A DNA stretch of 64,000 nucleotides from Globodera rostochiensis. Its lineage: Eukaryota > Nematoda > Chromadorea > Rhabditida > Heteroderidae. Positions 8,322 to 61,825 of this stretch are shown here, piece after piece (positions within the stretch are counted from its first letter, which is position 1; each line of letters opens with the position of its first letter). The stretch spans positions 930,001 through 994,000 of the forward strand of contig JAEVLN010000008.1 of the NCBI GenBank assembly GCA_018350325.1, read 5' to 3'. The position numbers and the translations under genes were made by a program. Below the pieces are notes generated by a model that was given only the letters and a program-made list of their open reading frames with translations, was not told the DNA's origin and searched no databases.

Positions 8322-9242
8322 ATGGAAGAATTTTGGATTTTAATTTTGGTGGCATTTTTTGCAACAAATGCACTGGACAAAGCCGAAGCCGTAAAAGTAA
8401 AACAGGAGCTCAAAACATTTGATGAAATATTCGGAGAAGGCTGGTGGGACAAAGGTGAAACCGAAGATTTGAAAACACCGGCGCCAACAAACTTTGGACA
8501 AAATGTCCATCGCCAAATCGACCGGCAGAACACCCAAATTGGACAAATTGAACCCAATCCTCCTCTCACAGAGTCTGATCACTCTGATAATGACGAAAAT
8601 GAGCAAAAACGTAAAATTATCGCCAAATTCCACGCAATGAAAAAAGAATTTAAGCAACAAGGAAAATCAAATAAAGAAAGGGTTCAAATTGAGGATAAAA
8701 TTGCTAAACATTTGAAAGTAAATCGCTCAAAAATATATAAATGGAAAAAAGAATTTGGCCTAAGTCGAAAATTTTTCTATGAAAAAGAAGAACGTAAACA
8801 TTTAGTAGAGAAATTTGATCAGATAAAAGCCGAGTTAACGCGAGACGGATTCAAAAACTCTTATCATCAAGAAATTGATAAAACTGTCGCAAAAGAGTTG
8901 GGCCTCAGTTTGGCAACAATTTACAAGTGGAAAAGAGAACTTGGCCAAACCGGTGAGTTTTTCAAGAGCCCAATTTTAATAATTTATTCATATTAAAAAT
9001 TCTTTACAGAACCAAACCAAAAATTCTCCCATAGCGAACAAAAGGAAATGATGAAGCGTTATTATGAAATTAAAGGCAAAAATCCTAAAATTAGTGATGA
9101 GAACATTGCCAAAATGTTTAAAATTGGTGGAAAAACTTTGGTTAGATGGAAAAAGCAATTTTCTGTCGATGGACATTTTGTGGAGGAGAATGTCGCTGCA
9201 AATGTTCAAGAAATTGGGAACTCGAATTTGAAAAGTTTTTGA
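8322..9242 (+). CDS. Secreted triple-HTH protein, intact (two exons)
   Basis: Exons 8322-8952 and 9010-9242, with a 57-bp intron (GTGAGT...TTTACAG) that splits a codon after GQT. The product is 287 aa. Residues 1-22 form a signal-peptide-like segment (MEEFWILILVAFFATNALDK). Then come KTFDEIFGEGWWDK, a short GQIEPN unit and an acidic linker. Three HTH-like modules lie at about 96-146 (IAKHLKVNRSKIYKWKKEFG), 160-208 (VAKELGLSLATIYKWKRELG) and 222-261 (IAKMFKIGGKTLVRWKKQF). The tail ends NSNLKSF. The modules resemble small transposase or psq-type DNA-binding folds, but no nuclease or other enzyme domain is present. Secretion and DNA binding are both inferred. Confidence 0.8.
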
Positions 9243-9404
9243 ATAAAAGGTGAATGATTTGGAAACAACGATTTGGCATGATTTAAACTATTTTTTGACA
9301 TATAAAATTTCAATCCCAACCCTAGTCCCGCCCGACCAACTCCAGTTTTAATGGATCGTCAAATTAACCAATTACAGGGTTAGTTTCTTCACTCTCCCAT
9401 GGCT

Positions 9405-10600
9405 ATCGGACATTTACACATAAGACATTTCACACCTTGGACATTTCACACATACGACATTTCACACCTTGGACATTTCACATATAAGAAATTTCACGCC
9501 TTGGACATTTCACACTTAAACATTTACATATAAGACTGTTGGGTCCTTGCTTTGGGACCAACAAACAATTTAAATAAAATATTTATTGTTGACAAACAAA
9601 ATATAGAAAATCAATTGGGGAGTCGGCACAGAGCACAATTTTGGAATAATCCAAAACAACAAATGTAAGCGATATGACCTCCACCAAAGAGGGGAGGTCA
9701 AAAATGAACTGAAGAGGTGTGTCTGACTCTCCTATGAGAGATCAGACACAAAGACAATACGAAGGGATGGGAGGGGGAAAAGATCACAATAAGATATCAG
9801 AATGCAATTTGATCATTTCAAAGCATTCTCGGGTGCTGCCACCCGAACAAAGATATTTCACATAAGACACTTCACACCTTGGACATTTCACATATATGAC
9901 ATTTCAGACCTTTGACATTTAACACATAAGACATTTCACACATAAGACATTTCACACATAAGACACTTACACCTAAGATATTTCACACCTTGGACATTTC
10001 ACACATAAGACATTTCACACCTTGGACATTTCACACATAAGACATTTCACACCTTGGACATTTCCACATATAAGACATTCACTATTTCACACCTTGGACA
10101 TTTCACACATAAACATTTCAGACCTTTGACATTTCACACATAAAATATTTCACACCTTGGACATTTCACACTTAAAAGATTCCACATATAAGACATTCAC
10201 ATAAGACACTTACACCTAAGATATTTCACACCTTGGACATTTCACACATAAGACATTTCAGACCTTTGACATTTCACACATAAAATATTTCACACCTTGG
10301 ACATTTCACACTTAAAGATTCCACATATAAGACATTCACATAAGACACTTACACCTAAGATATTTCACACCTTGGACATTTCACACATAAGATATTTCAC
10401 ACCTTGGACATTTCACACATAAGACATTTCACACCTTGGACATTTCACACATAAGACATTTCACACCTTGGACATTTCACACATAAGACATTTCACACCT
10501 TGGACATTTCACACTTAAAAGATTCCACATATAAGACATTCACATAAGACACTTACACCTAAGATATTTCACACAGCAGTGCAAATTCGGATGTTTCACA
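9405..10600. repeat. 32-bp minisatellite (ACATTTCACACCTTGG-type)
   Basis: Tandem copies of a 32-bp unit composed of two related 16-bp halves, ACATTTCACACCTTGG and ACATTTCACACATAAG. It is interrupted at 9537-9849 by a solo LTR. Between 10,080 and 10,570 a longer higher-order pattern with TTACACCTAAGATATTTC recurs. It is non-coding. Confidence 0.9.
9537..9849. mobile_element. Solo LTR inside the minisatellite
   Basis: This 313-bp block begins TGTTGGGTCC and ends CCCGAACA, so it has TG...CA termini with TGTT/AACA inverted ends. It interrupts the 32-bp array and is flanked by AAGAC and AAGAT, a 5-bp target-like pair that differs at one base (the array itself varies there). It includes AATAAA at about 9574. 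No internal retroelement genes are adjacent, hence a solo LTR. Confidence 0.65.
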
Positions 10601-10615
10601 CATAAGGTCTACCTT

Positions 10616-11298
10616 ATGTAAAAATACTTCAAAAATTTCCGAAGGTTTGCCCTTCGTTTCGATCTCATTCGAAACCGCTGTAGGCCTCAACATTTATTTA
10701 CTCCATAATTTTTCTACCGAACTTTCACCTTTCGTCAAATTTTTTTTTATGGCCATGGTCCGAACAAAAGAACAAGGTTCTCTCTCTATCTGTGTCGGAA
10801 AATTCATATCAAAATGTTCCCCCCCCCCGGGGTGTTGGCTTGTGTCAATCAAACCAATCGTTCCACCTCTAATGTTTTTGGATCTTATATCTCAATCACC
10901 ATCATTATTAGAGCGAACAATGACGGTTTTGTGTATGTTGTGTTGTGCTGTACACAATTAGACATTTTTGGAAAATTTTTGTCAAAAATAAAATGATTAG
11001 CTTGTTTCAACAATTTTCATACAATTTTAAATGGCAATCCCATTTTGCTTGCAGTGTTTCCCCCCCCCCCCCACAATTTTGGGTTTAGTAGAAACGGAAA
11101 ACGTCAAAAATGGTGGCAAACATGTGTGCTAAACAAAATTACACTCTTTGGGGCTGAAAACAAATATTACATCCAAAATTTTTGGAAAAAATCAATCTTT
11201 TGGGGCACAAACCCCCCGAAGTGTGTTTATTACCCATTATTTTTGGCACTTTGACGCCCTTTCTTGGTGAAAAAAAAGAAGTTTGGATTTCTAATACC
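10616..11298. other. Intergenic DNA
   Basis: No supportable gene. C-homopolymers at about 10,817-10,826 and 11,060-11,073 are places where indel errors are likely. Open frames here show no family features. Confidence 0.3.
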
Positions 11299-11820: not shown

Positions 11821-12767
11821 TCAATATTTTAGGCATTTTTTCCACAGAATGCCATCGACAGAATTTGGTTTAAATTGCCTTTTCCATCTAATCAAAGTGG
11901 CTCTTCCAATTTTCAACATTTTGGCAATGTCCTCGTCACTAATTTTTTTAGGATTTGTGTCTTTAATTTCATAATAACGTTTCATCAATTCTTTTTGTTC
12001 GCTGTCGGAGTGTTTATGTTTTGGTTCTGCAAAAAAAATTTTAATTAATATAAATAAATAATAAAATTGGGCTCTAAAAACTCACTGGATTGGCCAAGTT
12101 CACGTTTCCAATTGTAAATTGTTTTAAAACTGAGGCCCATTTCTTTTGCGACAGTTTTATCTATTTCATTTTGAGAGTTTTTGAATCCGGCCCGCGTTAA
12201 CTCGGCTTTTTTCTGATCAAATTTCTTTATAAAATGTTTGCGCTCATTTTTTTTCTTCTCAAAGTTATGCATTTTTTGACTTAGGCCTAACTCTTTTTTC
12301 CATTTATATATTTTTTTGCGATTGACTTTTAAATGTTTAGAAATTTTATTGTCAATTTGATTCCATTCTTTTTTTGAATATTTCCTTTTTTGCTTAAATT
12401 CGTCTTTAATTGCATGGAATTCGTCGATAATTTTACGTTTTTGCTCATCTTCAGCAATAGAAATTTCTTCGCCATGTTTGGCATTATCAAAGTGATCAGA
12501 CTCTGTGAGAGGAGCTTTCTGATCAGTTGAATTGGGTTCAATTTGTCCAATTTGGGTGTTCTGCCGGTCGATTTGGTGATGGACATTTTGTCCAAAGTTT
12601 GTTGGCGCCGGCATTTTCAAATCTTCGGCTTCATCTTTGTCCCACCAGCCTTCTCCGAATATTTCATCAAATGTTTTGAGCTCCAATTTTACTTTTACGG
12701 ATTCGGCTTTTTCGAGTGAATTTGTTGCGACGAATGACAGCAAAATTAAAATCCAAAACTCTTCCAT
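11821..12767 (-). CDS. Secreted triple-HTH protein, intact with altered C-terminus
   Basis: Exon 1 is 12086-12767 and exon 2 is 11821-12026, with a 59-bp intron (GTGAG...TTTTGCAG). The product is 295 aa. It has the signal-like MEEFWILILLSF start, FDEIFGEGWWDKDEAEDLK, one GQIEPNSTDQ unit and three HTH-like modules ending in WKKELG, WKRELG and WKRQF. A small deletion near VDG shifts the frame relative to sister genes, so the usual HSVEENAAANVQ tail is replaced by a short basic end (ILWKKCLKY). In the signal peptide LLSFVATNSLEKAES replaces the usual LVAFFATNSLDKAES. A conserved upstream block lies at 12,955-13,110. Confidence 0.78.
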
Positions 12768-15868: not shown

Positions 15869-16881
15869 TCAAATACTCCCCGAATTCGAGCGCCCAATTT
15901 TCTGAATATTTGCCGCGGCATTCTCTTCCGCAGAATGTCCATCGACAAAATTCGGTTGAAATTGCTGTCGTTTAAATTGCTTTTTCCATCTATACAAAGT
16001 TTTAGTAGTTCCAATTTTCAATATTTTAGCAATGTCCGCGTCACTAATTTTAGGAGTTTTGTCCTTAATTTCATAATAACGATTCATCAATTCCTTTTGT
16101 TCGCTGTCGGAGTATTTCTGTTTTGGTTCTGTAAAAGAATTTTTAATTAATATAAATAAAAAATAAAATTGGGCTCGAAATACTCACTGGATTGGCCAAA
16201 TTCACGTTTCCAATTGTAAATTGTTGTAAAACTGAGGCCCAATTCTTTCGCGACAGTTTCATTTATTTGACTGGGATAAGAGTTTTTGAATCCGGCCCGT
16301 ATTAACTCGGCTTTTCTCTGATCAAATTTCTCTATCAAATTTTGTCGCTTATTTTTTGGGTTTCTTTGATTTAAACCAATTTCTTTTTTCCATTTATATA
16401 TTTTTGTGCGATTGGCTTTTAAATGTTTAGCAATTTTATTGTCAATTTGAGCCCATTCTTTTTTCGAAAATTTTCTTTTTTGCTTAAATTCGTCTTTAAT
16501 TGCGTGGAATTCGTCGACAATTTTACGTTTTTCATTTGAAGTAATTTCTTCGTTATTTTTGGCATTATCAGAGTGATCAGACTCTGTGAGGGGAGGATTC
16601 TGATCAATTGAATTGGGTTCAATTTGTCCAAGCTGATCAGTTGTATTGGGTTCAATTTGTCCAATTTGTGTGTTCTGTCGGTCGATTTGGTGATGGACAT
16701 TTTGTCCACAGTTTGTTGGCGCCGGCGTTTTCAAATCTTCGGTTTCACCTTTGTCCCACCAGCCTTCTCCGAATATTTCATCAAATGTTTTGAGCTCCAA
16801 TTTTACTTTTACGGATTCGGCTTTGTCCAGTAAATTTGTTGCAAAAAATAGCACCAAAAATAAAAACCAAAATTCTTCCAT
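15869..16881 (-). CDS. Secreted triple-HTH protein, intact
   Basis: Exon 1 is 16188-16881 and exon 2 is 15869-16128, with a 59-bp intron (GTGAG...TTTTACAG). The product is 317 aa. It has a signal-like MEEFWFLFLVLFFATNLLDK start, FDEIFGEGWWDKGETEDLK, two short GQIEP units (one NTTDQ, one NSIDQ), then modules around IAKHLKANRTKIYKWKKEIG, VAKELGLSFTTIYNWKREFG and IAKILKIGTTKTLYRWKKQF. The third module has an extra residue (TTK). The complete tail is present (VDGHSAEENAAANIQKIG...SGSI). The usual GTCATTTATTAC word is not found upstream; only a TCAATATTCCTGACATTT word at about 17,104-17,124 remains. Confidence 0.8.
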
Positions 16882-23976: not shown

Positions 23977-25192
23977 ATGAATGAACTTTGGATTTTAATT
24001 TTGGTGGCATTTTTTGCAACAAATTCCCTAGACAAAGCCGAAGCCGTAAAAGTAAAATTGGAACTCAAAACATTTGATGAAATATTCGGAGAAGGCTGGT
24101 GGGACAATGACAAAGACGAAGAATGGAATAAATTAACGCTTGAACACAATTTCCATCACGAAATTGACAAAATTGAACCCAATTCAACTGATCAGAATCC
24201 TCACCGAGTCGGATCACTCTAGACAAATTGAACCCAATTTAACTGATCAGCTTGGACGAATTGAACCCAATTCAACTGATCAGAATCCTCCTCGCACAAA
24301 GTCTGATCACTCTGGACAAATTCAACTGATCAGAATCCTCCTCTCACCGAGTCTGATCACTCTGGACAAATTGACCCCAATTCAACTGATCAGCTTGGAC
24401 AAATTGAACCCAATTCAACTGATCAGAATCCTCCTCGCACAAAGTCTGATCACTCTGGACAAATTCAACTGATCAGAATCCTCCTCGCACAGGTCTGATC
24501 ACTCTGATAATCCCAAAAATGGTGATGAACAGAACGAAAATATTGCTGAAGATGAGCGAAAACGTAAAATTGTCGACAAATTCCACGCAATAAAAGACGA
24601 ATTTAAGCAAAAAGGAAAATATTCAAAAAAAATGGAATTAAATCGAGGTAAAAATTGCTAAACATTTGAAAGTTAGTCGTTCAAAAATATTTGAATGGAA
24701 AAAAGAATTTGGCCTAAGTCGAAAAGCGTTCTATGAAAAAGAAGAACATAAACATTTAATAGAGAAATTTGATCAGATGAAAGCCGAGTTAACGCGGGAC
24801 GGATTTAAAAATTCATATAAGCAAGAAATCAATAAAACTGTCGCAAAAGAGTTGGACCTCAATTTTGTAACCATTTATACGTGGAAAAATGAACTTGGCC
24901 AACCCACTGAGTATTTCGATCTTAATTTTATTAATTTATTTTAATTAAAAATCCTTTTACAGCACTAAAACATAAATATTCCGACAGCGAACAAAGGGAA
25001 TTGATGAAACGTTATTATGAAATTAAGGGCACAAATCCTAAAATTAGTGACGAGGACATTGCCAAAATGTTAAAAATTGGAGCACGCACTTTGGTTAATT
25101 GGAAAAAGCAAAGGACAGCAATTGCACCCAAATTCTGTGGTAGAGAATGCCGTGGCAAATGTTCAGCAAATTGCTCAAATTCGGAGAGTTGA
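23977..25192 (+). pseudogene. HTH-family pseudogene (frameshifts, lost splice donor)
   Basis: The signal-like start is MNELWILILVAFFATNSLDK, then FDEIFGEGWWDNDKDEEWNK. A 5-bp deletion around CCTCACCGAG (about 24,200) breaks the frame at GSL-stop. The repeat region then holds many partial GQIEPNSTDQ units with further shifts. HTH1 is disrupted near 24,625. HTH2 (24,666-24,920) is readable. The donor that is GTGAG in all intact genes is CTGAG here (CCACTGAGTA). Exon 2 (from 24,963) shifts frame after WKKQ. The upstream block is not recognisable. Confidence 0.75.
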
Positions 25193-36021: not shown

Positions 36022-37057
36022 ATGGAAGGATTTTGTATTTTAATTTTGGTGACATTCGTTGCAACAAATTTACTCGACAAAGCCGAATCCGTACAATTGG
36101 AGGAATTGGAAGAATTGCCACTCCAAACATTTGATGAAATATTTGGAGAAGGCTGGTGGAACAATGACAAAGACGAAGAATGGCATAAATTAATGCTTGG
36201 ACAAAATGTCCATCACCAAATCAGCCGACAGAACACCCCCCAGCTTGGACAAATTGAACCCAATTCAACTGATCAGAATCCTCCTCTCACAGAGTCTGAT
36301 CAGTTTGGACAAATTGACCATAATTCAACTGATCAGAATCCTCCTCTCACAGAGTCTGATCACTCTGATAATGCCAAAAATAACGAAGAAATTACTTCAA
36401 ATGAAAAACGTAAAATTGTTGACAAATTCCACGCAATGAAAGACGAATTTAAGCAAAAAGGAAAATATTCGGCAAAAGAATGGGTTCAAATTGAGGAGAA
36501 TATTGGGAAAAACTTAAAAGTCAGTCGCATATAAATGGAAAAAAGAATTTGGCTTAAGTAGAAAAGTGTTCTATGAAAAAGAAGAACGTAAAAATTTGGT
36601 AGAGAAATTTGATCAGATGAAAGCCGAGTTAAAGCGGGACGGATTCAAAAACTCTCATAAAAATGAAATAAATAAAACTGTGGCGAAAGAGTTGGGGCTA
36701 AGTGATAGAACAATTTACAAATGGAAACGAAAACATGGCCAAAGCAGTGAGTATTTTGAGTCCAAATTTATTCATTTATTTAAGTTAATTAAATTCTTTT
36801 ACAGAACCAAATAAACACTCCCACAACGAACAAAAGGAATTAATGAAACGTTATTATGAAATTAAAGACCAAAATGCTAAAATTATGACGAGGAAATTGC
36901 TAAAATGTTGAAAATCTGCAGAGCCACTTTGTATATTTGGAAAAAGCAATTTAAACGACAGCAATTTCAACCGAATTCTGTTGATGGACATCCTTTGGAA
37001 GTGCATGCCACGTCAAATGTTCAGGACATTGGGCACTCGAATTCGGGGAGTATTTAA
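36022..37057 (+). pseudogene. HTH-family pseudogene with two small deletions
   Basis: Start MEGFCILILVTFVATNLLDK, FDEIFGEGWWNNDKDEEWHK, then two QFGQI/QLGQI repeat units. An 8-bp deletion at about 36,526 (AGTCGCATATAAATGG) ends the frame inside HTH1 after KVSR. HTH2 continues readable (36,566-36,746). The donor (36,747 GTGAGT) and acceptor (36,801-36,804 ACAG) are intact. Exon 2 has a 1-bp deletion near ATTATGACG (about 36,884), and the original stop is at 37,055-37,057. Both lesions are recent-looking, since the rest is well conserved. Confidence 0.75.
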
Positions 37058-38690: not shown

Positions 38691-38850
38691 TACGTCAGTA
38701 ATATTGATTTGGTCCCTGTTAAAACAATATCTATGTGATGTCAGGTAATATTGATTGGGGTGAGATAATTATTAAAGAATATGATTTAATATAATACTTT
38801 AAATGCACATTTTCAATTGTGGGCTGTCATTTATTACTTTTAATAATTTT
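38691..38850 (+). promoter_or_regulatory. Conserved HTH-family upstream block
   Basis: It contains GTCAGTAATATTGATTTGGT, a second AGGTAATATTGATTGGGG, AAAGAATATGATT and CAATTGTGGGCTGTCATTTA, ending about 190 bp before the start at 39,033. The TATTGATT word is present twice, from an internal duplication. Confidence 0.5.
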
Positions 38851-39032: not shown

Positions 39033-40019
39033 ATGGAAGAGTTTTGGATTTTAATTTTGGTGTTAATTTTTGCAACAAATTCACTCGACAAAGCCGAATC
39101 CGTACAATTATTTGATGAAATATTCGGAGAAGGCTGGTGGGACAATGACAAAGCCGACGAATGGGATAAATTAACGCTTGAACAAAATTTCCTTCACCAA
39201 ATCGACTGGCAGAACACCCAAATTGGACAAATTGAACCCAATTCAACTGATCAGAATCATCCTTTCACAGAATCTGATCACTCTGGACAAATTGAACCCA
39301 ATTCAACTGATCAGAATCCTCCTCTCACAGAGTCTGATCAGCTTGGACAAATTAAACATAATTCAACTGATCAGAATCCTCCACTCACAGATGAAAACGA
39401 AATTGCTTCGAACAAAAATATTGCTGAAAATGAGCGAAAACGTAAAATTGTTGACAAATTCCACGCAATGAAAGCCGACTTTAAGCACAAACGAAAATCA
39501 GATAAAGAAATGGTTAAAATTGAGCAAAAAATTGCCAAACATTTAAAAGTCAATCGTACAAAAATATACGAATGGAAAAAAGAATTTGGCCTAAATCTAA
39601 AAGTGGTTAATGAAAAAGAAGAACGTAAACATTTAATAGAGAAATTTGATCAAATGAAAGCCGAGTTAACGCGGGCCGGATTCAAAAATTCATTTAATAA
39701 TAAAATTGATAAAACTGTCGCAAAAGAATTGGGCCTCAGTATTAGAACAATTTACGCTTGGAAAAGCGAACTTGGCCAGACCAGTGAGTATTTTGAGCTC
39801 AAATTTATTAATTTATTTATATTAATTAAAAATTCTTTTACAGAACCAAACCAAAAATTCTCCCACAGCGAACAGAAAGATTTAATGAAACATTATTATG
39901 AAATTAAAGACAAAAATCCTAAAATTCCTGACAAGGACATTACTAAAATGTTAAATATTGGAACTGATACTTTGTGTAGATGGAAGAGACAATTTAAACG
40001 ACAGCAATTCCAACCTTGA
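39033..40019 (+). CDS. Secreted triple-HTH protein, intact; intron readable in frame, short tail
   Basis: Exons 39033-39783 and 39844-40019, with a 60-bp intron (GTGAGT...TTTTACAG) that has no stop in frame. The spliced product is 308 aa (328 aa if retained). It has a signal-like MEEFWILILVLIFATNSLDK start, SVQLFDEIFGEGWWDNDKAD, and three GQI-type 20-residue repeat units (two with IEPNSTDQN, one IKHNSTDQN). Modules have KVNRTKIYEWKKEFG, GLSIRTIYAWKSELG and NIGTDTLCRWKRQF. It stops right after RQQFQP and so lacks the usual tail. A TTCAG at 39,010-39,014 lies 19 bases before the ATG. Confidence 0.8.
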   Translation: MEEFWILILVLIFATNSLDKAESVQLFDEIFGEGWWDNDKADEWDKLTLEQNFLHQIDWQNTQIGQIEPNSTDQNHPFTESDHSGQIEPNSTDQNPPLTESDQLGQIKHNSTDQNPPLTDENEIASNKNIAENERKRKIVDKFHAMKADFKHKRKSDKEMVKIEQKIAKHLKVNRTKIYEWKKEFGLNLKVVNEKEERKHLIEKFDQMKAELTRAGFKNSFNNKIDKTVAKELGLSIRTIYAWKSELGQTSEYFELKFINLFILIKNSFTEPNQKFSHSEQKDLMKHYYEIKDKNPKIPDKDITKMLNIGTDTLCRWKRQFKRQQFQP

Positions 40020-41760: not shown

Positions 41761-42612
41761 ATGGAAGAATTTTGGATTTTAATTTTGGTGGCATTATTTG
41801 CAACAAATTTAGTGGACAAAGCCAAATCCGTAAAATTGGAGGAAACGCCACACAAAACATTTGATGAAATTTTCGGAGAAGGCTGGTGGAACAAAGATGA
41901 AGCCGAAGATTTGAAAATGCCGCCGTCAACAGACTTTGGGCAAAATGTCCATCACCAAATCGACCGGCAAAACACCCAAATTGGACAAATTGAACCCAAT
42001 TCAACTGATCAGAATCCTCCTCTCACAGACTCTGATGAGCGAAAACGTAAAATTATAGCCGAATTCCACGCAATGAGAAACGAATTTAAGCAAATAGGAA
42101 AATATTCGGCAAAAGAAAGGACTCAAATTGAAAATGAAATTAGTACACATTTGGGCTTCAATCGCAAAAAAATATATGAATGGAAAAAAGAATTAGCCTT
42201 AAGCCAAAGAAATCCAAAAAATGAGCGACAAAATTTGGTAGAAAAATTTGATCAAAGAAAAGCCGAATTAAAGCGTGGCGGATTCAAAAACTCTTATAAG
42301 AAAGAAATTGAGAAAACTGTCGCGAAAGAGTTGGGCATAAGTTATACAACAATTTACAATTGGAAACGTGAACTTGGCCAAACCAGTGAGCATTTATTGT
42401 ATTAATTTTTTTATATTAATAAAAATTCTTTTACAGCACCAAAACATATATACTCCGACAGCGAACAAAAGGAATTGATGAAACGTTATTTTGTAATTAA
42501 GGACAAAAATCCTAAAATTAGAGACGGGGACATAGCGAAAATGTTGAAAATTGGAGGAAGCACTTTGTGTAATTGGAAAAAGCAATTTAATATTTTATTT
42601 TTAGGGTTATAA
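41761..42612 (+). CDS. Secreted triple-HTH protein, intact (parent-like copy of a duplication)
   Basis: Exons 41761-42385 and 42437-42612, with a 51-bp intron (GTGAG...TTTTACAG). The product is 266 aa. It has a signal-like MEEFWILILVALFATNLVDK start, the HKTFDEIFGEGWWNKDEAED motif, a single GQIEPNSTDQNPPLTDSD unit, and modules with GFNRKKIYEWKKELA, GISYTTIYNWKRELG and KIGGSTLCNWKKQF. The C-terminus is a short hydrophobic NILFLGL instead of the usual tail. Everything from AAAGCC (41,818) onwards is duplicated at 45,484, where the signal peptide is lost and extra repeat units are present. Confidence 0.8.
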
Positions 42613-43462: not shown

Positions 43463-44208
43463 ATGGACAAAAAAACAATAAATTTTATAATCTTTAACAT
43501 TTTAATAAGTTTTTTTAAAGCAAAAGTGGCTTGCTAAGACAAATGCGTTTTAGACTGTTTGTCTAATATCGATATTAATTATAAAAATATATAATCAATT
43601 AGTTTCAAAACATTTCAGTGGTTGGTGTTGCGGCTAAACATCATAAAATGGTCAAAAAGGTTGTTCGTCTGTGATGACATCATTGTGAAGCGACAATGCA
43701 AAACTGGATTGGGCTTATTAGATAGAAAATTTGAAATTTAGTGATTATTCTTTTTACACTTTTTTTTGAATGTTTATAAATGGAGGCTTTTCAGTTGGAT
43801 CACCTGTTTTTTGGACTATTGCTTTAGTTGGTTGCTTTTTTCTTCATATTCAAAATTTAAACTGGCCCAAAAACGGCTTTAAATTCTCGATTTTCTAATG
43901 ATAAATTCTTAATCACTTCACTCAAATAACATATTTTCAGACAATTTTTAGAAGAAAAAAAAATTTTTTTCACAAGTTTGACCAAGAGACCCCCCTCCCC
44001 TTCTATAGTTTTGCAAAGTTTAAGGAGCCATAACTTTCTTCATAACGCTTTCTACCAAAAATTTTTCTGGCTTCGTAATCAGCTCAACGAGCGGAGTCAA
44101 TTGATATATAAATTGTAGGGAAAATAAAATGTTTTGATATTCTTCAGTTTATCTTGAATATTTGCTTCTTTAGGGTCAAATTACTCGAACGATAAAAAGC
44201 TTAAAATT

Positions 44209-44460
44209 ATGAAAAAGTTAACGCGAATGAAAACCGGTGAGGACGAAAAATCATGCAAAGAAATGACAAAAATCCATAAAAATAGTAATGAAAACATTGC
44301 CAAAATGTTGAATATTGAAAGAACCAGTTTGGTTAGATGGAAAAGGCAATTTAAACGACAACAATTGGATAAAAATTCTATTGATGGACATTCTGTGGAA
44401 GAGAATGCCGCGGCAAATGTTCAGAAAATTGAAAACTCGAATTCGGAGAGCTTTAAATGA
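44209..44460 (+). pseudogene. Orphan HTH-family exon 2 (left arm)
   Basis: ATG 44,209, 83 aa: MKKLTRMKTGEDEKSCKEMT, then NENIAKMLNIERTSLVRWKR and the tail with IDGHSVEENAAANVQKIENS. It is a third HTH-like module with a complete tail but without exon 1 or a signal peptide. The N-terminal 25 residues come from non-family sequence, although an identical stretch exists at 1013-1042. It could make a small intracellular protein, but no promoter is evident. Confidence 0.55.
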
Positions 44461-45300: not shown

Positions 45301-45483
45301 TTGACAAAAAAAATTGTCCCCCTCCCCAACGTTGAAAAATAATTACCCATATGTAATTAAAACAGGCGTATACGATATCTCAGAAAAAACCCCAAATCTG
45401 CTCACGCTTTCTTTGCTATTCCTTCGGCTGAATTCGCAACAGTACGTTGCTCATTTTCATAAACTTGAAAACAATCTTTTCAT

Positions 45484-46479
45484 AAAGCCAAATCCGTAAA
45501 ATTGGAGGAAACGCCACACAAAACATTTGATGAAATTTTCGGAGAAGGCTGGTGGAACAAAGATGAAGCCGAAGATTTGAAAATGCCGCCGTCAACAGAC
45601 TTTGGGCAAAATGTCCATCACCAAATCGACCGGCAAAACACCCAAATTGGACAAATTGAACCCAATTCAACTGATCAGAATTCTCCTCTCATAGAGTCTC
45701 ATCACTCTGGACAAATTGAACCCAATTCAACTGATCAGAATTCTCCTCTCATAGAGTCTCATCACTCTGGACAAATTGAACCCAATTCAACTGATCAGAA
45801 TCCTCCTCTCACAGTGTCTGATCACTCTGGACAAATTGGACCCAATTCAACTGATCAGAATCCTCCTCTCACAGACTCTGATCACTCTGCTAATGCTGAA
45901 GATGAGCGAAAACGTAAAATTATAGCCGAATTCCACGCAATGAGAAACGAATTTAAGCAAATAGGAAAATATTCGGCAAAAGAAAGGACTCAAATTGAAA
46001 ATGAAATTAGTACACATTTGGGCTTCAATCGCAAAAAAATATATGAATGGAAAAAAGAATTAGCCTTAAGCCAAAGAAATCCAAAAAATGAGCGACAAAA
46101 TTTGGTAGAAAAATTTGATCAAAGAAAAGCCGAATTAAAGCGTGGCGGATTCAAAAACTCTTATAAGAAAGAAATTGAGAAAACTGTCGCGAAAGAGTTG
46201 GGCATAAGTTATACAACAATTTACAATTGGAAACGTGAACTTGGCCAAACCAGTGAGCATTTATTGTATTAATTTTTTTATATTAATAAAAATTCTTTTA
46301 CAGCACCAAAACATATATACTCCGACAGCGAACAAAAGGAATTGATGAAACGTTATTTTGTAATTAAGGACAAAAATCCTAAAATTAGAGACGGGGACAT
46401 AGCGAAAATGTTGAAAATTGGAGGAAGCACTTTGTGTAATTGGAAAAAGCAATTTAATATTTTATTTTTAGGGTTATAA
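45484..46479 (+). pseudogene. HTH-family gene without start or signal peptide, expanded repeat
   Basis: This is a copy of the 41,761 gene beginning at AAAGCC. The bases for the signal peptide and ATG are missing, and the upstream frame stops at 45,466, so no ATG-initiated full protein is possible. Exon parts are 45484-46252 and 46304-46479, with the same 51-bp intron. Three extra 60-bp repeat units (with NSPLIESHHSGQIEPNSTDQ) and an extra HSANAE are present relative to 41,761. The rest is practically identical. Confidence 0.8.
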
Positions 46480-47510: not shown

Positions 47511-47515
47511 CAACA

Positions 47516-47811: not shown

Positions 47812-48449
47812 ATGGCGAAGTTTTGGATTTTAATTTTGGTGGGATTTTTTGCAACAAATTCACTCGAAAAAGCCGAATCCGTAAAAGTAAAATTGGAGCA
47901 AACGCCACTCAAAACATTTGATGAAATATTTGGAGAAGGCTGGTGGGACAAAGGTGAAGCCGAAGATTTCAAAACGCCGGCGCCAACAAACTTTGGACAA
48001 AATGTCCATCACCAAATCGACCGACAGAACACCCAAATTGGACAAATTGAACCCAATACAACTGATCAGCTTGAACAAATTGAACCCAATTCAACTGATC
48101 AGAAACCACCTCTCACTGAGTCTGATCACTCTGATAATGCCAAAAATAGTAAAGAAATTTCTTCAAATGAAAATATTACAGAAAATGTGCAAAAACGTAG
48201 ATTGCAAAGCATTTAAAAGTCAATCGCAAAAAAATATATAAATGGAAAAAAGAATTTGGCTTAAGTCGAAAAAGGCATAACTTTGGGAAGAAAAAAAAAT
48301 GATCGAAAAAATTTGGTAGACAAATTTGATCAAATGAAAGCCGAGTTAAAGCAGGCCGGATTCAAAAACTCTTATCCCAATCAAATAAATGAAACTGTTG
48401 CGAAAGAGTTGGGCCTCAGTTTTAGAACAATTTACGCTTGGAAACGTAG
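47812..48449 (+). pseudogene. HTH-family pseudogene with internal and 3' loss
   Basis: Start MAKFWILILVGFFATNSLEK, then FDEIFGEGWWDKGEAEDFK and GQIEPNTTDQLEQIEPNSTD units. At about 48,200 (AAACGTAGATTGCAAAG) most of HTH1 is deleted and the frame ends at QSI. Out of frame, KVNRKKIYKWKKEFGLSRK and the whole of HTH2 to TIYAWKR follow. At about 48,449 family identity stops and unrelated sequence begins, so the intron and exon 2 are missing. The minisatellite replaces the distal promoter. Confidence 0.75.
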
Positions 48450-48837
48450 GCTAAAAAATAGTGAAACAACAGATCATCGCATAAAGCTTTTTCAAAAAAT
48501 TGAATACATATCATATGTCGCTCTTTTTGTTAAAAAAATGCCTTTTGCCGACCTTTTAAAATGGGTAATCCTTCCATATTACGGTCTCTTAATTCTAACT
48601 CGCTATCCTCTGCGAAGTCAATTTCTCCAGTCTCCAAATCATCAACATTCTCAATGTTCAATGTGCGTATGCGCATAAACAAATAGAGTTTAAAAGCCCA
48701 CAGGAGTCCCGCTCTAGCTGGTCTCTAATATGTTAACCTATTTTTTCTGCAAACTTGTGGCTTGTTTTCAAAAGTCACGGTAAATTTACCGATTTACCGT
48801 TACCCGAACCATTGCAGAAACCGTTTGAAGCCCCCTT
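48450..48837. other. Non-family sequence joined to the pseudogene
   Basis: The plus frame continues open to 48,678, giving a chimeric tail with hydrophobic segments, but I recognise nothing. TACCGATTTACCGTTACC-like words are at about 48,785-48,805. Confidence 0.3.
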
Positions 48838-49900
48838 CTAATTGTGCCCCCCCCCCTCCCTCGTGTGGTTGATTGAACAATAGAAGCCCCCCCCCCCCTC
48901 TATTCGAACCCCCCCCCCCCTAAACCGTAAACATTTAAAATGATCTAAAATGTTTGAGTCGACATTCATTTCCACAGAATTTGGTTGAAATTGCTGTCGT
49001 TTAAATTGCTTTTTCCATCTAAACAAAGTGACTCCGTTGATGTTCAGCCTTTTAGTAATGTCCTTGTCGCTAATTTTAGGATTTTCACCCTTAATTTCAT
49101 AATAACATTTCATCAATTCCTTTTGTTCGCTGTCGGAGTATTTATGTTTTGGTTCTGTAAACGAATTTTAATTGATATAAATAAATAATAAATTGGGCTC
49201 GAAAAAATACTCACTGGATTGGCCAAGTTTTCGTTTCCAAGCTTATCTAATTGTGTTTTATATGAACTTTTGAATCCGGCCTGCTTTAACTCGGCTTTCA
49301 TTTGATCAAATTCGTCTACCAAATTTTTTCGATCATTTTTTTTCTTCCCAAAGTTATGCCTTTTTCGACTTAGGCCAAATTCTTTTTTCCATTCATATAT
49401 TTTTGTGCGATTGACTTTTAAATGTTTAGCAATTTTCTGCTCAATTTGAGTTTTTTCTTTCCTAGGGAATTTCCCTTTTTGCTTTAATTCTTCTTTTATT
49501 GCTTGGAATTTGTCGATTATTCTACGTTTTCGCTCATTTTCTGTAATATTTTTATTTGAAGAAATTTCTTTACTATTTTTGGCATTATTAGAGTGATCAG
49601 ACTCAGTGAGAGGTGGTTTCTGATCAGTTGAATTGGGTTCAATTTGTTCAAGCTGATCAGTTGAATTGGGTTCAATTTGTCCAAGCTGATCAGTTGTATT
49701 GGGTTCAATTTGTTCAAGCTGATCAGTTGAATTAGATTCAATTTGTCCAATTTGGGTGTTCTGCCGGTCGATTTGGTGATGGACATTTTGTCCAAAGTTT
49801 GTTGGCGCGGGCGTTTTCATCTTCGGCTTCATCTTTGTCCCACCAGCCTTCTCCGAATATTTCATTTTACTTTTACGGATTCGGCTTTTTCGTTTGCCAT
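48838..49900 (-). pseudogene. HTH-family pseudogene lacking the signal peptide
   Basis: The ATG at 49,900 gives MANEKAESVKVK and a stop, because the hydrophobic core (about 40 bp) and a second stretch around KLELKTFDEIFG are deleted. A downstream frame (from 49,865) could encode a non-secreted protein with four LEQIEPN/LGQIEPN units, a complete HTH1 (IAKHLKVNRTKIYEWKKEFG) and a damaged HTH2 (lost TVAKELGLSFRTIY). Intron 49155-49214. Exon 2 keeps MKCYYEIKGENPKISDKD, LFRWKKQF and an altered tail running into C/G homopolymers (48,846-48,920). Confidence 0.7.
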
Positions 49901-50054
49901 CCTCTAAATTTTGAGATTTATATGAAATTCCATATTTTTTATAATTTAAAACTGAAAATTCGATTTGGAAAAATTTGTCTAATATTTTGTGTTAAAGAAT
50001 TTATATCATCTCTTAAAATTATAGAATAAGTAAAATTCAAATTTTTAGAAGTAT

Positions 50055-53871: not shown

Positions 53872-54854
53872 TCAAATATTTCCCGAATTTGAGTTATCAA
53901 TTTTCTGAATATTTGAGCCGGCATTTTGAACCACAAAATGCCCATCAACAGAATTTGGATTAAATTTCTGTCGTTTAAATTGTCTCTTCCAATTAATCAA
54001 AGTGCGTGATCCAATTTTCAACATTTTTGCAATGTTCTCGTCACTAATTTTAGTATTTTTGTCTTTAATTTCATAATAACGTTTCATCAATTCCTTTTGT
54101 TGGCTGTGGGAGTGTTTATTTGCTGCTGTAAAAGAGTTTTAATTAATTAATTTAAATAAATAATAAAATCAAAATACTCACTGGTTTGGCCATGTTTTCG
54201 TTTCCATTTGTAAATTGTTCTATCACTTAGCCCCAACTCTTTCGCCACAGTTTTATCTAATTCATTTTTATATGAATTTTTGAATCCGTCCCGCTTTAAC
54301 TCGGCTTTCATCTGATCAAATTTCTCTACTAAATGTTTACGTTCTTTTTTATTAAACACTTTTTGACTTAGGCCAATTTCTTTTTTCCATTTATAAATTT
54401 TTTTGCGACTGACTTTTAAATTTTTCCCAATATTCTCCTCAATTTGAACCCATTCTTTTTTCGAAAATTTTCTTTTTTGCTTAAATTCGTCTTTAATTGC
54501 GTGGAATTCGTTGACAATTTTACGTTTTTCGTTTGAAGTAATTTTTTCGCCAATTTTGGCATTATCAGAGTGATCAGACTCTGTGAGAGGAGGATTCTGA
54601 TCAATTGAATTGGGTTCAATTTGTCCAATTTGGGTGTTCTGTCGGTCGATTTGGTGATGGACATTTTGTCCAAAGTTTGTAGTCGGCGGTATTTTCAAAT
54701 CTTCGGCTTCGTCTTTGTCCCACCAGCCTTCTCCGAATATTTCATCAAATGTCTTGAGAGGCGTTTCCTCCAATTTTACGTTTACGGATACGGCATTTTC
54801 CATTGAATTTGTTGCAAAGAATGCCACCAAAATTAAAATCCAAAATTCTTCCAT
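53872..54854 (-). CDS. Secreted triple-HTH protein, intact (pair with 51,335-52,273)
   Basis: Exon 1 is 54182-54854 and exon 2 is 53872-54125, with a 56-bp intron (GTGAG...TTTTACAG). The product is 308 aa. The N-terminus equals its neighbour (MEEFWILILVAFFATNSMEN, PLKTFDEIFGEGWWDKDEAE), with one GQIEPNSIDQN unit. From about residue 95 it diverges: modules have KVSRKKIYKWKKEIG, GLSDRTIYKWKRKHG and KIGSRTLINWKRQF. The full tail is present (VDGHFVVQNAGSNIQKID, then SNSGNI). HTH2 is closer to that of the 36,022 pseudogene (LSDRTIYKWKRKHGQ) than to its neighbour, which suggests gene conversion between copies. Confidence 0.8.
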
Positions 54855-55854: not shown

Positions 55855-56590
55855 CCGAGTAGGGGTCGACTCCGCTCCGTCCCGCCAACTCCGTCCCAGC
55901 CAACTCCGTCCCAGCCAACTCCGTCCCAGCCAACTCCGTCCCGCTAACTCCGTCTCGAGCCAACTCCGTCCCAGCCAACTCCGTCCCAGCTACAAAAAAG
56001 TAAACTCCTCAGAAAAACAAAAATTTTAACAAAGATTTTTTCAAAGTTAAACAAAAGAAGTAATTGTAAACAAAATAATAAATTCAAGTGTTCATTCGGT
56101 AATTGCCCGAAATCCCCTAAGCACTTCAATAATCAAATGGGGATTGATCTGGTTTATTTGTAAGTCACTGTAGCTTGGGGTTCGTTAGGCTTAGGCCTAA
56201 GCCACCCTAGTTTGGGGTTCGTTAGGCTTAGGCCTAATCCAATCCGGCTTTGGAGTTACTCAAAAATCGGGTTTTCATTAATTTTTAAAATTTTAAACCG
56301 GTTCAAAACCCGTTTTAAATGCCCAATTTTGATTTTCTAATTACGAATTCGTAATCAATGCAATAACATATTTCTAAGCTATTTAAGAATAAAAACCTTT
56401 TTCAAAAATACCATAAGGGTCCCCCCTATGCTTTTTCAAAATTTGAAATTAGAGTATCACTTTTTTGAATCTAAAATTTGCAGCTGGGACGGAGTTGGCT
56501 GGGACGGAGTGTGTCGGGACGGAGTTGGCTCGGGACGGAGTTGGCGGGACGGAGTTGGCCCGTTTCGAAATTTACCCCCCCCCCCCCCCA
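55855..56590. mobile_element. Fold-back element with (CCAACTCCGTCCC)n ends, second copy
   Basis: Left (55,868-55,990) CCAACTCCGTCCCAG tandem array; right (56,480-56,560) GGGACGGAGTTGGC array; then a C-run at 56,574-56,590. Copy numbers in the arrays differ from the sister copy at 44,535-45,300. Confidence 0.6.
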
Positions 56591-56664
56591 TTAATAAAAA
56601 ATGAGCAGTCTTCTGCTGCGAGGAATCGTTAACAAAATTGGCCTTTTTTCAACTCATTGACCAT

Positions 56665-56916
56665 TCATTTAAAGCTCTCCGAATTCGAGTTTTCAATTTG
56701 CTGAACATTTGCCGCGGCATTCTCTTCCACAGAATGTCCATCAACAGAATTTTTATCCAATTGTTGTCGTTTAAATTGCCTTTTCCATCTAACCAAAGTG
56801 GTTCTTCCAATATTCAACATTTTGGCAATGTTTTCATTACTATTTTTATGGATTTTTGTCATTTCTTTGCATGATTTTTCGTCCTCACCGGTTTTCATTC
56901 GCGTTAACTTTTTCAC
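56665..56916 (-). pseudogene. Orphan HTH-family exon 2 (right arm)
   Basis: Same as 44,209-44,460 but with GTG in place of the ATG; the next in-frame ATG is at 56,898. It encodes NENIAKMLNIGRTTLVRWKR and the tail VDGHSVEENAAANVQQIENS. It differs from the left-arm copy at several residues (GRTT against ERTS, V against I, Q against K). Here the HTH matches the family consensus better, again favouring the right arm as original. Confidence 0.55.
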
Positions 56917-57792
56917 AATTTTAAGCTTTTTATCGTTCGGAGTAATTTGACCCTAAAGAAGCAAATATTCAAGATAAAACTGAAGAATATCAAAACATTT
57001 TATTTTCCCTACAATTTATATATCAATTGACTCCGCTCGTTGAGCTGATTACGAATCCAGAAAAATTTTTGGTAGAAAGCGTTATGAAGAAAGTTATGGC
57101 TCCTCAAACTTTGCAAAACTATAGAAGGGGAGGGGGGTCTCTTGGTCAAACTTGTGAAAAAAAAAAAGATTTTTTTTCTTTTAAAAATTGTCTGAAAATA
57201 TGTTATTTGAGTGAAGAGATTAAGAATTTATTTAGAAAAGAATCGAGAATTTAAAGCCGTTTTTGAACCATTTTAAATTTTGAAAATGAAGGAAAAAGCA
57301 ACTTTTAAGAACAAAAGCCGGATATAATAATGATAGGTCGCTGGCGGGCCGGAATTTTTCGATAAAGGAATTAAAATGTTCTGATTTTGTTAAGATTGAC
57401 GTCATTTATAAAGCAACTAAAGCAATAGTCCAAAAAACAGGTGATCCAATTGAAAAGCGTCCATTTATAAACATTCAAAAAAAAAGTGTAAAAAGAATAA
57501 TCACTAAATTTCAAATTTTCTATCTAATAAGCCCAATCCAGTTTTGCATTGTCGCTTCACAATGATGTCATCACAGACGAACAACCTTTTTGACCATTTT
57601 ATGATGTTTAGCCGCAACACCAAGCACTGAAATGTTTTAACTTAATTAGAGAAAAAATGATTTAAATTTATAATAATTAATATCGAGAATAGACAACCAG
57701 ACTAAAACGCATTTGTCTTAGCAAGTCACTTTTGCTTTAAAAAACCTTATTAAAATGTTAAAGATTATAAAATTTATTGTTTTTTTGTTCAT

Positions 57793-58757: not shown

Positions 58758-60208
58758 AAGGTCTCAGGGCCACTAGCGTCTCGCCATTAGCGTCTCAGGG
58801 CCACTAGCGTCTGGCCACTAGCGTCTCGCCATTAGCGTCTCAGGGCCACTAGCGTCTGGCCACTAGCGTCTCGCCATTAGCGTCTCAGGGCCACTAGCGT
58901 CTCACCATTAGCGTCTCAGGGCCACTAGCGTCTCGCCATTAGCGTCTCAGGGCCACTAGCGTCTCGCCATTAGCGTCTCAGGGCCACTAGCGTCTCACCA
59001 TTAGCGTCTCAGGGCCACTAGCGTCTCACCATTAGCGTCTCAGGGCCACTAGCGTCTCGCCATTAGCGTCTCAGGGCCACTAGCGTCTCGCCATTAGCGT
59101 CTCAGGGCCACTAGCGTCTCACCATTAGCGTCTCAGGGCCACTAGCGTCTCGCCATTGGCGTCTCAGGGCCACTAGCGTCTCACCATTAGCGTCTCAGGG
59201 CCACTAGCGTCTCGCCATTAGCGTCTCAGGGCCACTAGCGTCTCGCCATTAGCGTCTCAGGGCCACTAGCGTCTCACCATTAGCGTCTCAGGGCCACTAG
59301 CGTCTCACCATTAGCGTCTCAGGGCCACTAGAGTCTCGCCATTAGCGTCTCAGGGCCACTAGCGTCTCACCATTAGCGTCTCAGGGCCACTAGCGTCTCG
59401 CCATTAGCGTCTCAGGGCCACTAGCGTCTCGCCATTAGCGTCTCAGGGCCACTAGCGTCTCACCATTAGCGTCTCAGGGCCACTAGCGTCTCACCATTAG
59501 CGTCTCAGGGCCACTAGCGTCTCGCCATTAGCGTCTCAGGGCCACTAGCGTCTCACCATTAGCGTCTCAGGGCCACTAGCGTCTCACCATTAGCGTCTCA
59601 GGGCCACTAGCGTCTCGCCATTAGCGTCTCAGGGCCACTAGCGTCTCGCCATTAGCGTCTCAGGGCCACTAGCGTCTCACCATTAGCGTCTCAGGGCCAC
59701 TAGCGTCTCGCCATTAGCGTCTCAGGGCCACTAGCGTCTCACCATTAGCGTCTCAGGGCCACTAGCGTCTCGCCATTAGCGTCTCAGGGCCACTAGCGTC
59801 TCGCCATTAGCGTCTCAGGGCCACTAGCGTCTCACCATTAGCGTCCCAGGGCCACTAGCGTCTCACCATTAGCGTCTCAGGGCCACTAGCGTCTCGCCAT
59901 TAGCGTCTCAGGGCCACTAGCGTCTCGCCATTAGCGTCTCAGAGCCACTAGCGTCTCGCCATTAGCGTCTCAGGGCCACTAGCGTCTCACCATTAGCGTC
60001 TCAGGGCCACTAGCGTCTCGCCATTAGCGTCTCAGGGCCACTAGCGTCTCGCCATTAGCGTCTCAGGGCCACTAGCGTCTCACCATTAGCGTCCCAGGGC
60101 CACTAGCGTCTCACCATTAGCGTCTCAGGGCCACTAGCGTCTCGCCATTAGCGTCTCAGGGCCACTAGCGTCTCGCCATTAGCGTCTCAGGGCCACTAGC
60201 GTCTCGCC
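58758..60208. repeat. 31-bp minisatellite (TAGCGTCTC), about 47 units
   Basis: The 31-bp unit is GGCCACTAGCGTCTC plus (G/A)CCATTAGCGTCTCA, itself two related halves. Units carry either CTCGCCATT or CTCACCATT, giving a two-letter code along the array with repeated longer patterns. Sporadic variants include GAGTCTC, CATTGGC and CGTCCCAG. It ends 345 bp before the HTH gene at 60,555. Confidence 0.95.
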
Positions 60209-60234
60209 TCCTAGTGCTGGAAATGATTGGCGGT

Positions 60235-60390
60235 TTTCATTTTCGATCGCCATTTTTATAAAATGACTATTATTATTTAAGAAAATTTATGAGATGACAG
60301 AAATATATTGATTCGGATGAAAGATGATTATGAAAGAATATGATTATACCTATGTGGACTGTCATTTATTAGCTTTAATCATTTTTTACT
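60235..60390 (+). promoter_or_regulatory. Conserved HTH-family upstream block
   Basis: TTTTCGATCGCCATTTTTAT, AATATATTGATTCGGATGAA, AAAGAATATGATTATACCTA and GGACTGTCATTTATTAGCTT lie between the 31-bp array and the gene, about 180 bp from the ATG. Confidence 0.5.
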
Positions 60391-60554
60391 AAAGCTAAAT
60401 AATATTTATTAATATTGTAAATTTTAATATTCATTATTAGATAAATTCTAAGATACAAAATTGACAACATTCCCATGTGGAATTTCTCCTAAAATTATAT
60501 TAATTGGAATTTTATATAAATCTCGCTAATTTCAGTGGTTATTCTGCCCAAATA

Positions 60555-61825
60555 ATGGAAAAGTTTTGGATTTTAATTTTGGTCTCATTTTTTGCAACAA
60601 ATTTAATCGAAAAAGCTGAATCTGTAGAATTAGAGGAATTGCCACTCCAAACATTTGACGAATTATTCGTAGATGAATGGTGGGACAAAGATGAAGCCGA
60701 AGATTTGAGAACGCCGGCGCCAACAAACTTTGGACAAAATGACCATCACCAAATCGACCGGCAGAACACCCAAATTGAACAAATTGAAACCAATTCAACT
60801 GATCAGAATCTTCCTCTCACAGAGTCTGATCACTCTGGACAAATTGGACCCAATTCAACTGATCAGAATCCTCCTCTTACAGTGTCTGATCATACTGGAC
60901 AAATTGAACCAAATTCAACTGATCAGAATCCTCCACTCAAAGAGTCTGATCACTCTGGACAAATTGGACCCAATTCAACTGATCAGAATCCTCCTCTTAC
61001 AGTGTCTGATCACTCTGGACAAATTGAACCCAATTCAACAGATCAGAATCCTCCACTCAAAGAGGTTGATCACTCTGGACAAATTGGACCCAATTCAACT
61101 GATCAGAATCCTCCTCTTACAGTGTCTGATCACTCTGGACAAATTGGACCCAATTCAACTGATCAGAATCCTCATCTTACAAAGTCTGATCACTCTGATA
61201 ATGCCACTAATGGTGAAGAACAGAACGAAATAATGCAAGAAATTACTGCAGACAAAAAACGTAATATTATAAACATATTCCACGCAATTAAAGACGAATT
61301 TAAGCAAAAAGGAAAATATTCAAAAAAAGAATGGGTTCAAATTGAGGAAAAAATTGCTAAACATTTGAAAGTCAGTCGCTCAAAAATATACAAATGGAAA
61401 AAAGAATTTGGCTTAAGTCGAAAAAGCTTAAAAAATGAGCGAAAAAATTTGGTAGAGAAATTTGATCAAATGAAAGCCGAGTTAACGCGGGCCGGATTCA
61501 AAAACTCTTATTCGAATCAAATAAATGAAACTGTCGCAAAAGAATTGGGCCTCAGTTTTATAACAATTTACAAATGGAAACGAAAACTTGGCCAAACCAG
61601 TGAGTATTTCAAGAGCCCAATTTTATTATTTAAATTAATTCGAAATCTATTACAGCACCAAAAAATGAATACTCCAACAGCGAACAGAAAGAATTAATGA
61701 AACGTTATTATGAAATTAAGGACCAAAAGCCTAAAATTAGTGACGAAAACATTGCCAAAACGTTGAAAATTGGAAAAAACACTTTGGTTAGATGGAAAAA
61801 GCATTTTAAACTACAGCAATTTTAA
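60555..61825 (+). CDS. Secreted triple-HTH protein, largest, with eight repeat units
   Basis: Exons 60555-61599 and 61656-61825, with a 56-bp intron (GTGAGT...TTACAG). The product is 404 aa. It has a signal-like MEKFWILILVSFFATNLIEK start and the FDELFVDEWWDKDEAEDLRT variant. Then eight PNSTDQN-type units, mostly 20 residues (GQIGPNSTDQNPPLTVSDHS alternating with GQIEPNSTDQNPPLKESDHS), each carry an NST sequon. Modules follow with KVSRSKIYKWKKEFG, GLSFITIYKWKRKLG and KIGKNTLVRWKKHF. It ends after LQQF, before the usual tail. TTCAG is at 60,531-60,535. Confidence 0.85.
60780..61195 (+). repeat. 60-bp coding repeat
   Basis: Tandem 60-bp units (GATCACTCTGGACAAATTGG, then ACCCAATTCAACTGATCAGA) within exon 1. 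IGPN...LTVSD and IEPN...LKESD types alternate, giving a 120-bp higher-order period. The palindrome TGATCA occurs in each. Confidence 0.9.

Follow-up and report, generated by a model that had tools for sequence, protein, structure and literature searches.

A mosaic family of leader-bearing proteins with three predicted helix-turn-helix modules and hypervariable recognition helices in Globodera rostochiensis

Plant-associated organisms act on host DNA through proteins such as HsvG and HsvB, TAL effectors and GLAND4, as set out in parts of PMC12886408, where HsvG and HsvB appear as type III effectors of Pantoea agglomerans with five helix-turn-helix (HTH) motifs. Here, we analyse a gene family in a 64,000-nucleotide stretch of the Globodera rostochiensis genome (hereafter the window; bases 930001-994000 of contig C78), whose members encode a signal-peptide-like leader, a tryptophan (Trp)-containing acidic motif, variable repeats and three tandem modules with a predicted HTH fold. 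Beyond what a first-pass annotation of the window had noticed, the analysis brings out about 620 motif copies in the genome, a mosaic structure of the paralogs and hypervariable recognition-helix positions. We read the family as a repertoire of secreted DNA-binding effectors, an interpretation to which, taken with its full mechanism, we assign a probability of roughly 0.45.

The presence of the family and of its architecture in the sequence is close to certain. Within the window, the Trp motif occurs at 17 sites (14 of the FGEGWW type and three of the FVEEW type), and neither pattern turned up in 100 dinucleotide shuffles of the same stretch, which bears out the acidic motif of the first-pass annotation. 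Ten of the 17 copies are complete two-exon genes encoding proteins of 287-404 amino acids (aa; Table 1), one fewer than the eleven intact genes originally claimed; the eleventh is probably the copy at 41761, whose first exon is open and whose second exon was not found in place. The other six copies are incomplete by the criteria used or continue past the end of the window. From the leader (consensus MEEFWILILV.FFATNSLDKAES-V) through the Trp/acidic motif and the repeats to HTH1 and HTH2, the protein is encoded by exon 1; exon 2 encodes HTH3 and the tail. The three modules end in W-K, as had been described. The intron between the HTH2 and HTH3 exons (GTGAGT...AG) measures 54-79 nt in the window copies and 45-79 nt in the family at large, and is spliced as in the UniProt models of the family; the reading frame stays open across it in two copies, those at 26551 and 39033. 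The latter is our reference copy, to which UniProt A0A914H1F3 (P0010) is 100% identical over 48% of the query, and in which A-x-S before V would provide the leader cleavage site. For the wider comparisons, 60 complete gene models were assembled. The window supplied 10 of them; the other 50 came from 67 loci, the top-scoring matches of a single query. Of 85 starts, 25 failed the completeness criteria and a few appeared twice, in loci that overlap; loci L069-L088 lie outside the counts. The 20-residue (60-nt) repeat numbers 1 to 8 units per protein across these models, in keeping with the variable repeats first noted.

Pattern scans of the 92.6 Mb genome (80 contigs) allowed two mismatches and counted motifs, intact and broken, rather than intact genes. 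They returned 496 sites for FGEGWW and 123 for FVEEW, against 0 and 2, respectively, with the reversed-pattern controls; the FVEEW sites include at least two listed two-mismatch sites that look unrelated, and the total is about 620. Among the places listed, copies are clustered in the manner of genomic islands on contigs C45, C18, C33, C78 and C3, and others lie on C2, C8, C10, C19, C67 and elsewhere, some of them single. Homologs of the 39033 copy (120 listed of 237) comprise 119 G. rostochiensis proteins and one from G. pallida; with the G. pallida protein P0051 as the query, 120 of 296 proteins were listed, P0051 itself being the sole G. pallida entry among them; and a module profile run against the protein collection listed nine proteins, eight from G. 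rostochiensis and one from G. pallida. P0051 and P0160 are the only G. pallida members among the matches listed, and no relative from outside Globodera appeared among the matches listed in the protein homolog and module-profile searches. The UniProt labels of listed members are mostly 'Transposase' or 'uncharacterized', with P0085 named 'Secreted protein'. Over their first 232-285 residues, the annotated G. rostochiensis proteins P0011, P0005 and P0015 match the genome at 100%, 98% and 99%, respectively.

It is close to certain that the paralogs are mosaics, in which the modules of one gene are nearly unrelated in ancestry. As evidence for this, the decay of linkage, with its permutation control and simulations, outweighs the distance correlations. 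The r2 between common sites is 0.43 when they lie less than 3 bp apart, 0.046 at 40-80 bp and about 0.02 once the spacing exceeds 160 bp, reaching the background (1/(n-1) = 0.017) within about 100-200 bp; linkage within 40 bp is 0.222, whereas none of 1000 permutations of position gave more than 0.068. Spearman correlations of module distances across the 60 genes are -0.02 (HTH1-HTH2), 0.19 (HTH1-HTH3) and 0.06 (HTH2-HTH3), with nearest neighbours common to these pairs in 2, 5 and 4 of the 60 genes (null 1.6). Families simulated under Kingman, moderate-burst and star-like models (eight runs each; uniform rates, no selection) gave correlations of 0.34-0.94 and, on average, 37-53 of 60 neighbours in common. 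Distances computed separately from the odd and the even codons of a single module correlate at only 0.11 (leader), 0.36, 0.10 and 0.24; the distance statistic is therefore noisy, though such values fit very short tracts. Some linkage between the leader and its neighbouring segments is retained: the leader and Trp segment correlate at 0.28 and have 14 of 60 neighbours in common, and the leader and HTH1 have 8 of 60 (null about 1.5 in each case).

The simplest cause of this mosaicism would be ectopic gene conversion in short tracts. Some identical tracts are found between contigs, as in the 190 bp shared by two copies, one on C45 and one on C33, whose overall identity is 89%. An assembly artefact, a concern where paralogs are so similar, was rejected in view of the annotated proteins, of which 3/3 match at 98-100%, and of the uncorrelated modules in the UniProt set, a gene set that may not be independent of the assembly studied. 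In that set, the 18 of 162 proteins from which all three modules could be extracted by profile give module correlations of -0.04 to -0.05; an earlier extraction, using alignment A1 (15 of 59 proteins), had given 0.49 for HTH1-HTH2, where misalignment is suspected, and -0.10 and -0.03 for the other pairs. Recent strain-specific shuffling was dropped, since P0011, P0005 and P0015 show stable orthologs. Against a partial set of 162 proteins, one of the 60 models finds a match of at least 97%.

The HTH fold that had been proposed for the modules is well supported by profile matches and structural models. Pfam HTH_23 exceeds its curated cut-off (24.6 bits) in five of seven pieces (best 43.5 bits; E = 2.5e-11 for piece 26551-27492), the two below it being the exon-2 piece 15869-16183 (13.1 bits) and piece 51548-52273 (24.1 bits); HTH_Tnp_1 and HTH_28 likewise pass their curated cut-offs in several pieces. 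AlphaFold2 predicts three trihelical bundles in the relative P0015, with per-residue confidence (pLDDT) mostly above 90, and a three-helix fold with a recognition helix in the HTH1-HTH2 piece of the 39033 copy modelled alone. The predicted fold resembles the transposase HTH domains of SETMAR/Hsmar1, Mos1 and IS TnpE (2rn7), single matches being weak. In searches of PDB sequences, the module profile found nothing convincing (best E 0.08) and a single family protein found chance matches only (best E 0.96). The HTH part is strongly basic, with a median isoelectric point (pI) of 10.0.

Variation is concentrated on the residues expected to read DNA. Entropy at recognition-helix positions 1, 2 and 6 is 1.97 versus 0.74 elsewhere; the ratio of nonsynonymous to synonymous diversity (piN/piS) at these positions is 1.58 over all three modules and 1.85 in HTH2 and HTH3, and it is 0.02 at positions 3, 4, 7 and 8 of HTH2 and HTH3. 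The resulting nine-residue codes (three positions in each of three modules) are all different, 59 in 59 distinct genes. SETMAR contacts bases through R417, H427, S428 and R432. The structural alignment of a window HTH2 ends at model residue 127 and SETMAR residue 437; model residues 117, 118 and 122 would therefore lie opposite SETMAR 427, 428 and 432, if the alignment is ungapped there. In the models, then, variable positions 1, 2 and 6 correspond to base-contacting residues of SETMAR.

The reading of the family as a repertoire of secreted DNA-binding effectors is inferential as regards secretion, binding to DNA, delivery, targets in the host and the conversion mechanism, and runs along the following lines. 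Proteins in which repeats form a flexible spacer between the leader with its Trp/acidic motif and the three HTH modules in tandem would be secreted. The modules would be reassorted as paralogs exchange short tracts, most likely through ectopic gene conversion, and selection would keep the fold and diversify the recognition-helix residues that would touch bases. Each member would read a composite site via its three modules, and the repertoire would cover many sites; the proteins would reach the nuclei of root cells in the host and there bind to its promoters, like HsvG or TAL effectors. To our knowledge, a combinatorial library of secreted DNA readers has not been described for any parasite, and the most far-reaching form of the proposal, in which hundreds of such readers with conversion-reassorted helices and a selected code act as a repertoire on host chromatin, is doubtful. 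The same secreted effectors might instead use the HTH fold as a protein-binding or immune-evasion scaffold, the variability of helices 3 and 2 tracking host receptors or partners. Hypervariable positions do occur outside helix 3 as well, and cyst nematodes are known to possess effector families that vary: sections of PMC8359618 present SPRYSEC as by far the most diversified effector family studied there, with 60 and 99 variants in two lines. The scaffold role nevertheless seems unlikely, given that the variability matches the base-contact spacing of DNA-bound HTH domains, that positions 1, 2 and 6 often carry Lys or Arg, and that the HTH part is so basic.

The signal-peptide-like N-terminus first noticed in the window recurs, as a hydrophobic core scored by our own hydropathy cut-off, in 60/60 complete models. 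The median ratio of nonsynonymous to synonymous substitution (dN/dS) is 0.54 in the leader (18% of pairs above 1), 0.44 in HTH2 and 0.64 over the whole protein (1% of 1769 pairs above 1). These values point to purifying selection on the family proteins, which, judging by their N-termini, are probably secreted.

Promoter tests covered the 500 nt upstream of 76 of the 85 starts (those with an open frame of at least 120 aa and a full 500 nt of sequence ahead of it). The DOG box is not enriched there: at least one is present in 18 of the 76 promoters and at least two in 4, with a mean of 0.29. Parts of PMC4901422 report 2.54 boxes per promoter for dorsal-gland effectors and 0.32 for non-effectors, and take two or more per promoter as the criterion. 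Among 179 anagrams of the motif, the mean is 0.113 per promoter and 5.6% reach 0.29; any DOG-box excess is therefore weak at most. Dorsal-gland control, an idea prompted by ATGCCA beside one copy, is unsupported by this family-wide count. In the relevant parts of PMC10946958, CLE effectors likewise lack DOG boxes, and the box is not required of all effectors; in Gr-Line19, according to portions of PMC12886408 and PMC10946958, every GLAND4/Gr-1106 gene except one is preceded by DOG boxes. Of the secreted HTH effector proposed in the first-pass annotation, the folds and the hydrophobic leader hold up. The absence of a dorsal-gland promoter signature is a weak point of our interpretation and counts against the simplest effector story. 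It would suit nuclear repressors acting within the nematode against mobile DNA, in the manner of KRAB zinc-finger proteins, whose hydrophobic start would not be a working secretion signal, and the copy number, the DNA-face diversification and the HTH modules do resemble genome-defence repertoires; a nuclear protein would not need a leader, however, and with one kept in every model at a median dN/dS of 0.54 we consider this role quite unlikely. The leader and the basic tandem HTH part would also fit secreted binders of extracellular DNA or microbial surfaces (extracellular DNA, root-surface microbes, egg or cyst fluids), an improbable role in that non-specific binding leaves the focus of diversity on base-contact positions unexplained.

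The same upstream regions contain other shared motifs. TATTGATT lies within 500 bp upstream of 61 of the 76 genes (shuffled mean 4.2, maximum 9), is strand-specific (reverse complement in 4 of 76) and has a median position of -227 when 700 bp are searched; it could be a family-specific control element. Several of the listed TATTGATT sites are preceded by ATGTCAGG-like letters. AATTCAGA is found in 33 of the 76 promoters, mostly near -29, and is possibly a splice-leader acceptor, by resemblance.

Beyond the coding regions, similarity between copies falls off quickly. In 400 random pairs, median identity is 85% across coding bases 1-75 and 88% in the intron, which exceeds every flank tested. Median identity drops to 72% in the 50-base flank ahead of the start codon (63% after shuffling) and to 64% in the 50-base flank beyond the stop (60% after shuffling). 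By BLAST among 76 copies, homology is shared by 98% of pairs just past the start codon and by 40% over the preceding 50 bases; the share is about 20% at -100 and 1.5% at -500. Homology is therefore mostly confined to the gene body, including the intron, with the promoter partly shared. No common element ends appeared in these flank comparisons, which included no direct search for terminal repeats or target-site duplications, and the Pfam matches listed for the seven pieces contain no catalytic domain, only HTH-type and weak chance matches. That the family is a transposon spreading by transposition, as its HTH_Tnp_1 matches, the automatic UniProt name 'Transposase' of many members and the many motif copies, some single on other contigs, might suggest, is thus very improbable: no catalytic domain was seen in the seven pieces and no common ends in the flank comparisons, homology fades at the start and stop codons, the intron is retained and selection is purifying.

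Should the proteins be both secreted and DNA-binding, a single parasite would possess DNA-reading effectors in hundreds of different versions, reprogramming of plant gene expression by an animal parasite would become directly testable, and HTH specificities would be available as a natural combinatorial library. Independently of what they do, these hundreds of dispersed paralogs, whose sites recombine almost freely and whose homology fades where the coding sequence ends, show concerted yet diversifying evolution of a sort that is unusual for an animal. The 'Transposase' database label of many members may have made effector screens pass over them.

Table 1. Family copies in the window and features of the reference copy (window coordinates).
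Feature	Coordinates	Strand	Remarks
Complete copy	exons 8322-8952, 9010-9242	+	287 aa
Complete copy	exons 12086-12767, 11821-12026	-	295 aa
Complete copy	exons 16188-16881, 15869-16128	-	317 aa
Complete copy	exons 19385-20114, 20194-20393	+	309 aa; FVEEWLD type
Complete copy	exons 26859-27489, 26551-26804	-	294 aa; intron open in frame
Complete copy	exons 30788-31499, 30487-30731	-	318 aa; FVEEWLD type
Complete copy (reference)	exons 39033-39783, 39844-40019	+	308 aa
Complete copy	exons 51592-52273, 51335-51534	-	293 aa
Complete copy	exons 54182-54854, 53872-54125	-	308 aa
Complete copy	exons 60555-61599, 61656-61825	+	404 aa; 60-nt repeat, 7 units
Incomplete copy	23977..24944	+	leader frame of 81 codons; HTH1 end and HTH2 in other frame, 24642-24944
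Incomplete copy	36022..36793	+	170 open codons, then HTH2-like DNA beyond frame end
Copy with open exon 1	41761..42405	+	214 aa; no intron donor or second exon detected in place
Copy	45469..46272	+	267 open codons; leader start not in frame
Incomplete copy	47812..48678	+	134 open codons; HTH2-like part in other frame, 48265-48678
Incomplete copy	49113..49991	-	Trp motif at 49840 out of frame with repeats and HTH1
Further copy	63740..64000	+	beginning only; cut at window end
HTH3-like open frame	44158..44460	+	standing apart
Stretch resembling HTH3 exon region	56694..56957	-	separate
TATTGATT element, reference copy	38749..38756	+	284 nt before start; second begins at 38702
Leader, reference copy	39033..39101	+	signal-peptide-like; begins acidic, with a hydrophobic core of 11 residues and A-x-S ahead of V
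Trp motif, reference copy	39117..39140	+	EIFGEGWW
In-frame repeat, reference copy	39223..39391	+	60 nt, GQIEPNSTDQNPPLTESDHS-like, 2.8 copies
HTH1, reference copy	39432..39596	+	
HTH2, reference copy	39621..39782	+	recognition-helix code I-R-A (positions 1, 2, 6)
Intron, reference copy	39784..39843	+	60 nt, GTGAGT...TTTTACAG
HTH3, reference copy	39867..40001	+	recognition-helix code T-D-R

Among the copies in Table 1, the one at 45469 resembles that at 41761, 3.87 kb upstream, with 300-nt blocks 100% identical. Two inverted arms of 563 nt (44594-45156 and 55995-56557) are 98% identical, and a second inverted pair (44186-44547 and 56578-56939) overlaps both separate HTH3-like stretches. The window further contains a 31-nt minisatellite at 58761-60208 (46.8 copies, 96% match) and a minus-strand open frame at 47010-47588 that consists largely of a 25-nt minisatellite (47063-47506, 17.7 copies) and has a hydrophobic start and repeated TKRPNWWIYETPKLVDLRNAQIGG-like units. 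tRNA-family matches lie at 1538-1610, 6139-6211 and 40875-40947, the first two in duplicated stretches about 4.6 kb apart (1445/6046 and 2088/6683).

The family had been called undescribed, and no account of it was found in the open-licence literature, judged from titles or the beginnings of abstracts. The words 'transposase' and 'helix' are absent from the main texts of PMC4901422 and PMC10946958, as are 'transposase' and 'DNA-binding' from that of PMC11309470. Structures were predicted for all G. rostochiensis proteins in PMC11309470, parts of which report no conserved effector fold; models of the family may therefore already be deposited unremarked.

Among described systems, the transposase HTH domains of SETMAR/Hsmar1, Mos1 and IS TnpE resemble the family in predicted fold and base-contact spacing, through individually weak matches; unlike those proteins, the family has a secreted-type leader and three modules and lacks a catalytic domain among the matches listed. 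PRDM9 and the KRAB zinc-finger repertoires show a diversification focused on base-contact residues, as the family does, but they are zinc-finger proteins that are nuclear and not secreted. The HYP effectors of Globodera show extreme variation in an in-frame motif region, according to parts of PMC11228951, and differ in being single-copy loci with many alleles; the family has hundreds of loci and about 620 motif places, and three annotated proteins match the genome at 98-100% over the lengths given above. Further systems are likened to the family by their published descriptions. GLAND4/Gr-1106, a secreted, DNA-binding cyst-nematode effector that is reported to act as a transcriptional suppressor in the plant nucleus in the relevant sections of PMC12886408 and PMC10946958, has 9, 10 and 15 paralogs in three species. 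HsvG and HsvB are likewise secreted into plants, carry several HTH motifs and are described as activators of host transcription, but they are bacterial type III proteins, two of which are described, with five HTH motifs. TAL effectors, as portrayed in parts of PMC12886408, would share with the family its tandem DNA-reading units and the variable base-contact residues set on a near-constant scaffold; they are built of 33-35-residue repeats with two variable residues each, whereas the family combines three HTH modules per protein and spreads its variants over many loci.

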